From Planctomycetota bacterium (GTDB taxonomy: Bacteria; Planctomycetota; Phycisphaerae; UBA1845): DNA of 64,000 nt. The translations under genes and the position numbers were made by a program. Below the pieces are notes generated by a model. The model did no database searches. It had not been told where the DNA came from and saw only the letters and a list, made by a program, of their open reading frames with translations. Where the stretch lies: the NCBI GenBank assembly GCA_030616775.1, contig JAUWWQ010000004.1, forward strand, positions 62,001 to 126,000, given 5' to 3'. This document shows positions 54,554 to 58,305 of this stretch, in pieces (within the stretch, counting starts at the first letter, position 1; the number at the start of each line of letters is the position of its first letter).

Positions 54554-55489
54554 CTACTCGTGCTTATGCTTGTGCTCGTGCTTGTGCGATCTGCCGGCGC
54601 AACTCCCACCACAACCACAGTGCCCGGCGGGGGTCTTCAAACGGCGATGCTTCTTCACGATCACTTTTTCAGCGGAGGCTCCGGGACAGCACTCCTCCCC
54701 GGCCCCTATCACCTTCTTGATCACCTTCTTGATTACCTTGCCGCCCGCAGCCTTGGAGCAGCACCCGATGGGGCATTCCGGACAGCACCCGGGAGAACAT
54801 CCGGCACAGCACGGCTCCTTCAAGGCCGCTGCTTTGGCGGAGGCGCCGGGACACCAGTCCTCCCCGGCTCCTACCACCTTAATCACCTTCTTGATCCCCC
54901 TGCCGCCCGCAGCCTTGGAGCAGCACCCGATGGGGCATTCCGCACAGCACCCGGGAGCACACTCGGGGCAGCACGGCTCCTTCAAGGCCGCTGCTTTGGC
55001 AGACGCACCGGGACAATCCTCCTCACCGGCTATCATCACCTTTATCATCTTCTCGCCCGCTTCGCCGCCCGCAGCCTCGGCGCAGCACCCGATGGGGCAT
55101 TCCGGACAGCACCCGGGAGCACACTCGGGGCAGCACGGCTCCTCCGAGATCGCTGCTCTAGCGGAGGCGCCGGGATACCAGTCCTCCCCGGCCCCTACCA
55201 CCTTAATCACCTTCTTGATGGCCTTGTCGCCCGCAGCCTCGGCGCAGCACCCGATGGGGCATTCCGGACAACAGCCGGGAAAACACCCCGGGCAGCACGG
55301 CTCCTCCAAAGCCGCCGATTTAACGGTGGCACCTGAACAACCCTCCTCCCCGCCCATTACAACCTTGACCACCTTCTTGACCGCGCTCTTCTCGATGCCC
55401 TTGGCGCCGCACTGGCCGAGCGCCGAGCTGGTTACAAAGGCAACGACCAGGCCCGCGACAAGACTGTTTACTCTGGACTGCGATAGCAT
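54554..55489 (-). CDS. Exported tandem-repeat cysteine-rich protein with His-rich tail
   Basis: 311 residues from ATG at 55489 with AAAGGAG upstream. Signal peptide (SLVAGLVVAFVTSSALG). Then there are four tandem units of exactly 54 residues (162 bases), each with a basic helix (KKVIKVVGAGED), a linker (PGASAKAAALKE) and a cluster PCCPECAPGCCPECPIGCC with eight cysteines. A fifth half-unit lacks the cluster and leads to CGCGGSC and the tail HKHEHKHKHE. That is over 30 cysteines in all. The pattern fits a metal- or thiol-binding periplasmic or surface protein, but no known family is recognised. It is the last gene of the sigma/anti-sigma/sensor operon, 29 bases after the sensor. Function inferred from composition and context only. 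Confidence 0.85.
   Translation of the reverse strand: MLSQSRVNSLVAGLVVAFVTSSALGQCGAKGIEKSAVKKVVKVVMGGEEGCSGATVKSAALEEPCCPGCFPGCCPECPIGCCAEAAGDKAIKKVIKVVGAGEDWYPGASARAAISEEPCCPECAPGCCPECPIGCCAEAAGGEAGEKMIKVMIAGEEDCPGASAKAAALKEPCCPECAPGCCAECPIGCCSKAAGGRGIKKVIKVVGAGEDWCPGASAKAAALKEPCCAGCSPGCCPECPIGCCSKAAGGKVIKKVIKKVIGAGEECCPGASAEKVIVKKHRRLKTPAGHCGCGGSCAGRSHKHEHKHKHE
54730..55380. repeat. Four coding tandem repeats of 162 bases
   Basis: The segment CCCGATGGGGCATTCCG recurs at 54764, 54926, 55088 and 55250, always 162 bases apart. The repeats are in frame within the cysteine-rich gene. The exact period and high identity suggest recent expansion or homogenisation by recombination. Confidence 0.9.
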
Positions 55490-55518
55490 ATCCGCTCCTT
55501 TCAAAACAGAGGTTCTCT

Positions 55519-56046
55519 TCACTCTTTTCCACAACAATCAGCCAGCCGCTCCAGTTGGCTGGGTGTCAACGTCTTTCTCACCAACACTATGGCATTAACA
55601 CGGCTCTTGAGTTCTTCCGCGCGAAGTTCACCGATCTGATCGGCCAACTCGTGCAGGCGTGCCGTATCAGGATTGCTCGCCGCGAGCTCCCGTTCCAAGT
55701 TCGCGAGAAGCACAGTGATTCGCTCGTCGAGCTGGGCGCGTTGCTGCGCGTAGATTGGACAACATACGGCGATTTCCTGTTTCTGGGTTGCCGTAAGCTT
55801 CACCGTCTCCACAAGAGGGCAACACGGCGGGCCCTTCGTCTTGATCACCACCCGGCGGGCGATGCCGAAGGGAGTGGTGTCGACTGGGGTGGTGCCGATG
55901 GGGGCAGTGTCGACTGGGGCGCTGCCGACAAGGTCGGCGAGTTCAGGGAGAACCGGCTCGGTTGGCGTCTTGGCGTGATACACGTTGAGAGCGGCGCTGG
56001 CGGCCAGAGCACCAAACAACACCCAGAATGTCATCATCCTCTTCAT
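55519..56046 (-). CDS. Spy/CnrX-like periplasmic heavy-metal sensor with three Cys-Cys pairs
   Basis: 175 residues. The N-terminus is a membrane anchor or signal (MTFWVLFGALAASAALNVYH). A Pro/Thr-rich linker precedes a helical domain with LTATQ (84-88) and LTPSQL (160-165), the LTxxQ repeats of the Spy/CpxP/CnrX group. Three vicinal cysteine pairs occur at 75-76 (GPPCCPL), 95-96 (IAVCCPIY) and 171-172 (ADCCGKE); these are not typical of CnrX, which uses other ligands. The ATG overlaps the anti-sigma stop as ATGA. Position and fold suggest that it senses metal or thiol stress outside the membrane and signals to the anti-sigma factor. Confidence 0.82.
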   Translation of the reverse strand: MKRMMTFWVLFGALAASAALNVYHAKTPTEPVLPELADLVGSAPVDTAPIGTTPVDTTPFGIARRVVIKTKGPPCCPLVETVKLTATQKQEIAVCCPIYAQQRAQLDERITVLLANLERELAASNPDTARLHELADQIGELRAEELKSRVNAIVLVRKTLTPSQLERLADCCGKE

Positions 56047-56540
56047 GGCTTGGCGTCCGTGAGCAACTCTTTGACCAGGCGTGCTTCCGGTCTTTGGTCG
56101 AGAAGCTCCAACGTCTCTCCACCTCGTCTGGGTGTAGCGAGAGCGACGCTGCTTTCTCGCAAGACCTGCTCGATCTGAGAAGCCATTACGAGCTGGGGCG
56201 CCTGTTGTGGCTCCAACGCCGATTTCATTGCTCCAAATCCGAACAGATAGAAGACGAAACCTGCGGCCACCGCTGCGGCCCGAACGAACCAGCTACGGAC
56301 TCGCAGGCGCCGGGCGGGTAACGTCTGTTGAGCGGATGCTGCGACACGTCCCCACAGTCCCTCAGGTACTTCGCACGTCCGATCCGAACGCAACAGCTCC
56401 CCGATCAGAGCCAGGTCCCGGAGGTATGCGCTGCAACTCGGACACTCAGCGAGGTGCGATGCGATCTGGTCCCGCTCTGCGGACTCCAACTCGCCATCGT
56501 AGTACGCCGAGATCCTGGACAATACCTCAGCACAGGTCAT
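56043..56540 (-). CDS. Zinc-finger anti-sigma factor
   Basis: 165 residues from ATG at 56540, with GAGGAG eight bases upstream; a start at 56582 would overlap the sigma gene more. The N-terminal zf-HC2 domain has SHLAECPSC, giving His29, Cys33 and Cys36 (HxxxCxxC). A single transmembrane helix follows (VRAAAVAAGFVFYLFGFG), then a periplasmic C-terminal part of about 65 residues. It would hold the ECF sigma factor encoded upstream at the membrane until the sensor partner acts. Its start lies 14 bases inside the sigma gene, so translation is coupled. Confidence 0.88.
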   Translation of the reverse strand: MTCAEVLSRISAYYDGELESAERDQIASHLAECPSCSAYLRDLALIGELLRSDRTCEVPEGLWGRVAASAQQTLPARRLRVRSWFVRAAAVAAGFVFYLFGFGAMKSALEPQQAPQLVMASQIEQVLRESSVALATPRRGGETLELLDQRPEARLVKELLTDAKP

Positions 56541-57177
56541 CGCGTGATCGCTCCTCACGTATTTGGACAATCGGGGCGTCACCGTTATTCCCGCGCGTCC
56601 TCCGGCCTATTACAGATCCGGTGAGCCGTGCCCGCAGAGTATAACGAGCGCGTGCCAACCTAGACATTACCGTCCCTACCGGAACTTCGAGAAGCTCGGC
56701 AATTTGCGCGTATGACAGGCCGTCGACTTCGCGCAGCACGAGGCAGGCCCGGTAATGACCCGGAAGCGACTGCACAAGCCTGTCAACAAGCTCGTTTCGC
56801 TCCTTGACACTCGAGCATTCCACTGGTGACGGAGCTGATCCGTGTTGGGCGTTGTGAAACTCCCGGAACGCAGAGTGAGTACAGGTTTCGCTGCGTCTTA
56901 GCTGCTTGATCCTGTTAAGGCAATGTCGCACACCCAGTCGGTATAGCCACGTATAGAATCCTGAGCGGCCCTGGAACTTGTCGGCATGTTCAAAGGCCCG
57001 AACGAAGATTTCCTGGGTGACATCCTCCGCATCAGCCTCATTGCCCATCATTTTCCTAGCGAGGTGGTGCACCCGCGTGCCGTACAGCTCGAAAATCGTA
57101 CTAAGAGCGGTGATGTCGCCGCTTCTGAGCCGGGCCAGGACGCTGGGATCGGGTTCACTTGGGAGGGGATCAGGCAC
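56527..57177 (-). CDS. ECF-family RNA polymerase sigma factor
   Basis: 216 residues from GTG at 57177; a stop lies six codons earlier in frame, and no ATG is available. Sigma region 2 is at about residues 26-95 (FELYGTRVHHLARKMMGNEA, DAEDVTQEIFVRAFEHADKF), and region 4 at about 130-185 (LPGHYRACLVLREVDGLSY, YAQIAELLEVPVGTVMSRLA). The tail is basic and longer than usual. It would direct transcription of this operon and perhaps others. An ECF-like promoter lies at 57233-57261. First gene of the four-gene operon. Confidence 0.93.
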   Translation of the reverse strand: MPDPLPSEPDPSVLARLRSGDITALSTIFELYGTRVHHLARKMMGNEADAEDVTQEIFVRAFEHADKFQGRSGFYTWLYRLGVRHCLNRIKQLRRSETCTHSAFREFHNAQHGSAPSPVECSSVKERNELVDRLVQSLPGHYRACLVLREVDGLSYAQIAELLEVPVGTVMSRLARARYTLRARLTGSVIGRRTRGNNGDAPIVQIREERSRDDLC

Positions 57178-57232
57178 TTTCAGGTATCGAGCTTAGTGGA
57201 TCAGCGCTCGGCGAGCATACTCCTCCTTGACT

Positions 57233-57261
57233 TTTGACAACCGGGAAGCTCGGAGTATTCC
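57233..57261 (-). promoter_or_regulatory. Putative ECF autoregulatory promoter
   Basis: On the minus strand GGAATA (57256-57261), 17 bases, GTCAAA (57233-57238). ECF promoters usually have GGAAC or GGAAT near -35 and GTC near -10. Between it and the GTG start is AAGGAGGA followed by a five-codon ORF (ATG CTC GCC GAG CGC TGA). Confidence 0.45.
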
Positions 57262-57570: not shown

Positions 57571-58305
57571 TCAGAATCGGCCAAAGAGCGGAATGGTCGT
57601 CACCGCGATTCCGCCGTCCCGGATTACGCTGTAGTCGCTGGGGGCGCTCACCTCGCGCAGCCAGTAGGAGGCCCCGTAGCCGAACTCCATGGTGCGACCG
57701 TCGCCACTTTCGGCCCGATTGAACGTCATGGGCATGGGGTGAGCCGCTACCGGGACGCGATGAATGCGGTTTCGGGCATCGGCTGGGAGTGGGGCTGGCA
57801 GGTTGATGTTCCAAATACCAGGCGCTGGCAGCGTTTCACTGATTAGCTCCTCGATCAGGAAGGTGGTGATATCGGTCGCGGCCTCCCAGTCGGTTGCCAC
57901 CCCGGTCCGAATCGCCTGTGACACGGCAATCGCTTTTAGCCCCAGGATCGCAGCCTCACGAGCACCGGCGACCGTACCGGAATAGAAGGTATCCACGCCC
58001 GCATTGGCCCCTGCATTGATCCCTGAAACGACCAGGTGGATCGGCTTCTCGATCAGCGTTGCCAAGGCCAATCGAACGCAATCAGCCGGGGTCCCCTCAA
58101 GAGTGTAGATCGTCCCAAACTTGTCATGCTTGAGGCGCTCAACGGTTATCGGGCCGCGGAGAGTGATCGTATGGCTACAGGCCGACCGTTCCGTCTTCGG
58201 GGCCACAACGTGCACGGTCCCGATATCGCGCAATGCCTCGTAGGCTGCGTACAACCCCGGTGCGTCGTACCCGTCGTCATTGGTCAGGAGAATGCTTAAG
58301 CCCAT
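57571..58305 (-). CDS. surE: 5'/3'-nucleotidase SurE
   Basis: 244 residues. ILLTNDDGYDAPGLYAA holds the Asp-Asp pair (about residues 10-11) that binds metal. VVAPKTERSACSHTITL carries the conserved serine loop. VSGINAGANAGVDTFYSGTVA is the family signature (conserved Asn and Ser), here read in short as SGINAGANAGVDTFYSGTV. The enzyme dephosphorylates nucleoside 5'- and 3'-monophosphates in the cytoplasm. A 27-codon frame upstream ends TAATG, overlapping the surE start, so translation may be coupled to it. Confidence 0.95.
   Translation of the reverse strand: MGLSILLTNDDGYDAPGLYAAYEALRDIGTVHVVAPKTERSACSHTITLRGPITVERLKHDKFGTIYTLEGTPADCVRLALATLIEKPIHLVVSGINAGANAGVDTFYSGTVAGAREAAILGLKAIAVSQAIRTGVATDWEAATDITTFLIEELISETLPAPGIWNINLPAPLPADARNRIHRVPVAAHPMPMTFNRAESGDGRTMEFGYGASYWLREVSAPSDYSVIRDGGIAVTTIPLFGRF

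Follow-up and report, generated by a model that had tools for sequence, protein, structure and literature searches.

The window analysed here, a stretch of 64,000 nucleotides from a Planctomycetota bacterium of the class Phycisphaerae, is part of contig C75 of an assembly of 4.45 Mb that is 97.8% complete. Its minus strand carries a gene for an ECF sigma factor (56527-57177; 216 aa, GTG start), a gene for a membrane anti-sigma factor (56043-56540; ATG start), a gene for a Spy/CnrX-like membrane-anchored sensor (55519-56046; assigned on profile, fold and alignment evidence) and a gene for an exported Cys-rich effector (54554-55489; 311 aa). The initial annotation had described an operon of ECF sigma factor, zinc-finger anti-sigma factor, Spy/CnrX-like sensor and Cys-rich exported protein, and this operon is real: all four genes are present in that order, and the junctions are a 14-base overlap, an ATGA and a 29-base gap, as claimed. 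A scan of the operon for sigma-70 promoters and terminators was uninformative. Among the ORFs of the window, no metal transporter adjoins the cassette, and the cassette has no thioredoxin- or Dsb-like gene. The sigma factor is 89% identical in amino acids to that of a genome of the same genus (G002) over 200 codons and is under purifying selection (dN 0.063, dS 0.137). Together with a gene order that recurs in other families, this selection argues that the cassette is more than a chance arrangement.

The sigma factor matches Pfam Sigma70_r2 (2.7e-18) and r4_2 (7.7e-18), and in NCBIfam the general ECF superfamily (sigma70-ECF) is the sole model above cut-off. The anti-sigma factor carries a zf-HC2 domain (45.2 bits versus a cut-off of 22.2; 9.5e-12) with an HxxxCxxC motif (HLAECPSC) and, judged by this motif and domain, is a zinc-finger anti-sigma factor of class I; it spans the membrane with one helix and has a C-terminal RPEARL segment on the outer side. 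Two predicted ECF-type promoters lie on the same strand. P1 (GGAATACTCCGAGCTTCCCGGTTGTCAAA, 57233-57261) is 55 bases upstream of the sigma start, and P2 (GGAATAACGGTGACGCCCCGATTGTCCAA, 56563-56591) lies inside the 3' end of the sigma gene, 22 bases upstream of the anti-sigma start, which was set at ATG 56540 because P2 would fall within the longer ORF. They share the consensus GGAATA-N15-TTGTC(C/A)AA. With the terminal AA, P1 and P2 are the only matches of the GGAATA form in the genome (three looser GGAAT matches occur elsewhere); without it, GGAATA-N15-TTGTC has four genome matches, two of which are P1 and P2. Both promoters are kept in G002 and in G021. P2 recurs in four further genera, exactly in G041 and with one or two letters changed in G459, G458, G442 and G217, each recurrence arising in at most 1 in 1000 first-order shuffles; for P1, the shuffle P-value is < 0.001. 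From this layout we infer that the sigma factor would drive its own gene and, separately, the anti-sigma, sensor and effector genes.

Two further features touch on the promoters. A third exact GGAATA-N15-TTGTC site, which lacks the cassette-type AA, is shared by G000 and G002 (L022 position 2282 and L023 position 2275, both on the minus strand); it lies ∼160 bases before an ORF for a 553-residue exported repeat protein and is a possible further sigma target. Between P1 and the sigma start (57217-57200, minus strand), a Shine-Dalgarno-like AAGGAGG is followed by a five-codon ORF (ATGCTCGCCGAGCGCTGA), which is kept in G002. The sigma GTG start itself has no clear Shine-Dalgarno site, and the G021 sigma gene starts with TTG. 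The AAGGAGG and the short ORF possibly reflect a leader peptide or translational control.

The sensor has 175 residues, an N-terminal membrane helix and two LTxxQ motifs. The three vicinal Cys pairs attributed to it earlier are C75 C76, C95 C96 and C171 C172. The arrangement LTxxQ-x6-CC occurs twice, once per domain half, both in the window sensor and in that of G041. Taken singly, the sensor scores just below the Pfam gathering cut-offs (26.6 versus 29.2 bits for Metal_resist, 23.1 versus 24.3 for LTXXQ); a profile of 14 sensors compared with the PDB matched Spy (7.5e-7), CpxP (3.5e-4) and also ZraP. On this profile similarity and the LTxxQ motifs, the sensor is assigned to the Spy/CpxP (LTXXQ) superfamily. 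In its AlphaFold model, residues 81-170 are predicted confidently, and the top matches of a fold search with the model include ZraP, CnrX, Spy and CpxP at Z of 9-11, values that helical hairpins also reach by chance. Compared with CnrX alone, the sensor profile gave a weak match (probability 8%), so the CnrX link rests on the fold search and the multiple alignment, in which the CnrX sequence was that of pMOL28. The metal ligands of CnrX are, according to the CnrX literature and structures, H42, H46, E63, H119 and M123. For M123, ligand function is reported in PMC7689651. The window sensor does not carry this set in the alignment: C75 (in an ungapped register) falls at H42 and C96 at E63, and the positions of H119 and M123 are occupied by Ala and Val. 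By its ligand positions the sensor is thus not a CnrX; it might be a thiol-based counterpart.

The effector, for which more than 30 cysteines and a His-rich tail had been noted, contains 41 Cys with 13 CC pairs and ends in HKHEHKHKHE. A signal peptide is seen directly (MLSQSRVNSLVAGLVVAFVTSSALG, followed by QCG), and since it follows ATG 55489, we placed the start there and not at that of a longer TTG ORF. Tandem Repeats Finder detected 4.4 copies of a 162-bp repeat (54671-55380, minus strand) that encode 54-aa Cys repeats; the protein has four such 54-residue repeats of the type EEPCCPECAPGCCPECPIGCCAEAAGG. It matched no Pfam family, and AlphaFold run without an alignment yielded no structure (pLDDT 38.7). 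The effector of G021 is homologous to it (33% over 250 residues). BLASTP found no clear homology between the window and G041 effectors; the mature proteins of both apparently begin with QCGAK. A scan of viral contigs with the effector gave no relative, and a viral origin was rejected.

Close relatives of the sensor are rare: they were found in 4 of the 60 nearest genomes (the own genome and one weak match counted) and in 5 of the 114 genomes of the order (the own genome counted). In the named-genome scan the only two relatives were G021 and G041, the Phycisphaerae metagenome assemblies OFTM243 and bin658. Their cassettes each have an exported Cys-rich fourth gene, with 36 Cys in 279 aa in G021 and 42 Cys in 323 aa in G041, where the sigma gene falls in an N gap. 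In G002, the sigma gene, the start of the anti-sigma gene and both promoters are followed by an assembly gap. With a broader sensor profile, 44 of 397 genomes in the class and 32 of 392 in the phylum had relatives, counting sensors without an adjoining sigma gene. The initial annotation had named lack of joint conservation in relatives as a refuting outcome, and the proposed system survived this check: several planctomycete families have cassettes of the same order with a Cys-rich fourth gene. Cassettes were sampled as an anti-sigma gene before a sensor gene with the next same-strand gene taken as the fourth, a sigma gene also being required except where a gap, the end of a contig or a weak match accounted for its absence. 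Their fourth genes encode Cys-rich exported proteins, EF-hand repeat and DUF3179 proteins (both recognised by eye), cytochrome c, a Cys-tailed TPR protein and others; in one relative, the product contains a weak HMA-like segment (E 0.036) and CPHKG repeats.

We found that sensor and fourth gene vary together in cysteine content. Among 35 cassettes, which share ancestry and whose fourth genes were curated by hand, not blind, after a codon-bias gene caller had failed at several loci (the window included), the number of Cys in the sensor ectodomain correlated with the percentage of Cys in the fourth gene product (Spearman 0.69, P-value 4.8e-6). Fourth genes with at least 5% Cys accompanied 14 of 18 sensors with at least four Cys and 0 of 17 with fewer (Fisher test, P-value 1.6e-6), cassettes with no clear fourth gene, among them L141 and L175 with Cys-rich sensors, being left out. 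Cys-rich sensors with Cys-poor fourth genes form exceptions in L061, L174, L176 and L047. Fourth-gene Cys was not tracked by Cys of the sigma factor (rho 0.28, P-value 0.14) or of the anti-sigma factor (rho 0.13, P-value 0.46). Moreover, in all five genomes with two cassettes (G001, G020, G021, G096 and G479), the Cys-richer sensor is paired with the Cys-richer fourth gene, which argues against an effect of overall genome composition.

Most of the wider cassette set gave no match to the narrow GGAATA promoter. In three genomes of family f45 (G299, G414 and G388), a variant, GGAA[TG]-N16-CGGTC, occurs upstream of the sigma gene and a second time in the gap that immediately precedes the Cys-rich gene, with identical spacing at every site. 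Six sites were found versus 0.18 expected within those loci; the variant is degenerate and, in these GC-rich genomes, not unique genome-wide, so that its significance lies in the placement within the cassette. This repeat is the most direct sequence evidence for control of the Cys-rich gene by the sigma factor.

We compared the cassette with known systems. It shares with CnrYXH of Cupriavidus metallidurans (nickel/cobalt resistance) an ECF sigma factor, a membrane anti-sigma factor and a membrane-anchored sensor of probable Spy fold in one cassette, and presumably the release of the sigma factor on ligand binding. However, the gene order is Y-X-H in the pMOL28 annotation, CnrY is an anti-sigma factor of class II (PMC7406223) whereas the window has a class I zinc-finger protein (zf-HC2), CnrX has His, Glu and Met at ligand places where the window sensor has Cys, and the output is the CnrCBA efflux pump in place of a Cys-rich exported protein with no pump attached. 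The earlier reading is partly supported. Profile and fold searches support a CnrX-like sensor, and the covariation and the promoter layout support shared ligand chemistry of sensor and effector and direct control of the effector. With gene order and anti-sigma class differing and no efflux pump attached, the operon is not a cnrYXH cassette. Spy, CpxP and ZraP, which are periplasmic, share the LTxxQ motifs and probably the fold of the sensor domain, but the window sensor is membrane-anchored, Cys-bearing and encoded in a sigma/anti-sigma operon. The effector resembles metallothioneins in its Cys-dense low-complexity sequence and, considered alone, has no predicted fold; unlike them, it has an export signal, 311 residues, Lys/Val-rich linkers between the Cys clusters and no sequence family match. 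Bufferins need an MNIO enzyme, whose gene usually adjoins that of the precursor. They act as copper chelators after export, and their Buf1 clusters in some cases include sigma and NrsF anti-sigma genes (PMC12452194). They thus offer a precedent for an ECF-linked (SigF/NrsF-type) exported Cys-rich protein proposed as a metal buffer; the window cassette differs from Buf1 in having no MNIO and no DUF2282, another kind of repeat, a membrane zinc-finger anti-sigma factor and a separate sensor. The cassette combines CnrYXH-like sensing with a bufferin-like output and is a member of neither group. It is not described in the open-access literature searched, a scope that excludes the planctomycete ECF surveys PMC7286433 and PMC3497475 and so leaves an earlier mention possible.

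Recurrence of the cassette and the tracking of Cys suggest that soft metal ions or thiol stress evoke a response of the sense-and-mop-up type, in which a Cys-bearing membrane sensor probably releases a dedicated sigma factor, so that a Cys-packed exported protein is produced. We put the probability that the cassette is an auto-regulated soft-metal sense-and-sequester circuit at about one half. In such a circuit the sensor, held by its N-terminal helix, would display its Cys outside the membrane, where binding of a thiophilic metal, for example Cu(I), Zn, Cd or Hg, would alter the sensor's contact with the anti-sigma factor. As in CnrYXH, the anti-sigma factor would then release the sigma factor, which would fire P1 and P2, and anti-sigma factor, sensor and effector would rise together. 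The exported effector, which may be extracellular or periplasmic, with its 41 Cys, repeats and His tail, would bind the metal outside the membrane and switch the circuit off. The operon and its protein types, the cassette-only promoter pair kept in relatives and the f45 promoter repeat are consistent with such a circuit, as are the correlation of sensor and fourth-gene Cys, the Spy/CpxP/ZraP/CnrX grouping and the position of C75 and C96 at CnrX ligands. The soft-metal reading is weakened by Ala and Val at the H119 and M123 positions, by the lack of a metal transporter beside the cassette and by the loci whose fourth gene is Cys-poor or unclear. Cysteines outside the cytoplasm may moreover be oxidised and are hence an ambiguous sign of metal.

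A live rival is a thiol/redox circuit. Oxidative or electrophile stress, or faulty disulfide formation, would make or break disulfides at the CC pairs of the sensor and so release the sigma factor, the effector serving as a sacrificial thiol/disulfide buffer. The vicinal pairs suit such a sensor and the Cys covariation fits equally well; the rival is a real one, given that the effector place is taken in some relatives by cytochrome c, or by a Cys-tailed TPR protein and a polyferredoxin. We nevertheless consider it less likely, as the cassette has no thioredoxin- or Dsb-like gene, and a soft metal is favoured over redox stress by the fold group of CnrX and ZraP, by the His-rich tail and by the weak HMA-like segment with CPHKG repeats. 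Less probable still is a circuit of envelope building, with the effector as a disulfide-cross-linked coat or wall protein whose folding or amount the sensor monitors. The effector is exported, repetitive and Cys-dense, Spy-type domains are chaperone-like, and some planctomycetes have wall proteins of the Cys-rich YTV type (PMC8567305); yet YTV genes are reported in Planctomycetales only (PMC8567305) and the named cassette relatives are Phycisphaerae (a comparison by taxonomy and literature), the cassette is rare and patchy, unlike a structural gene, and effector sequences differ widely. That the effector is a bufferin-like RiPP precursor, which would chelate copper once an MNIO enzyme has modified its Cys, has very little probability despite the Buf1 clusters with sigma/NrsF genes (PMC12452194) and the MNIO genes elsewhere in the cassette genomes G262, G414, G442 and G217, and was rejected for the window genome, since no MNIO (PF05114) was detected in G000, G021 or G041 with working controls and the effectors showed no DUF2282 or other notable Pfam match.

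If the sense-and-sequester reading is true, the cassette would be a compact envelope metal (or thiol) response with a dedicated sigma factor that controls little beyond its own genes, and a simple sequence feature of the sensor would predict the chemistry of the effector. Functions would be suggested for a large number of planctomycete genes that lack a name, candidate soft-metal-responsive sigma/promoter pairs would become available and the choice of ligand by Spy-fold sensors would be directly testable. A wider generalisation is tentative, somewhat short of an even chance: a fixed sigma/anti-sigma/sensor module would extend throughout the phylum Planctomycetota, with sensor Cys and the exported fourth gene changing together according to the class of ligand sensed, such that a matching low-complexity sequestering protein is exported, Cys-rich with Cys sensors and with EF-hand repeats alongside several Cys-poor sensors.

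Individual loci add some detail. In L149, L152, L156 and L158, Cys-poor sensors are accompanied by an exported protein with EF-hand-like repeats (by eye) as the fourth gene product, possibly the equivalent, for calcium, of the Cys-rich effectors. In L061 (4301-6557; genome G459), a Cys-tailed TPR protein and a 4Fe-4S polyferredoxin with membrane helices are encoded 3' of the sensor gene, and the output of this cassette looks redox-related. Finally, a surE-like gene adjoins the cassette both upstream in the window (57571-58305, minus strand) and downstream in the distant genome G262 (L038, 4649-5506, minus strand), perhaps by coincidence.
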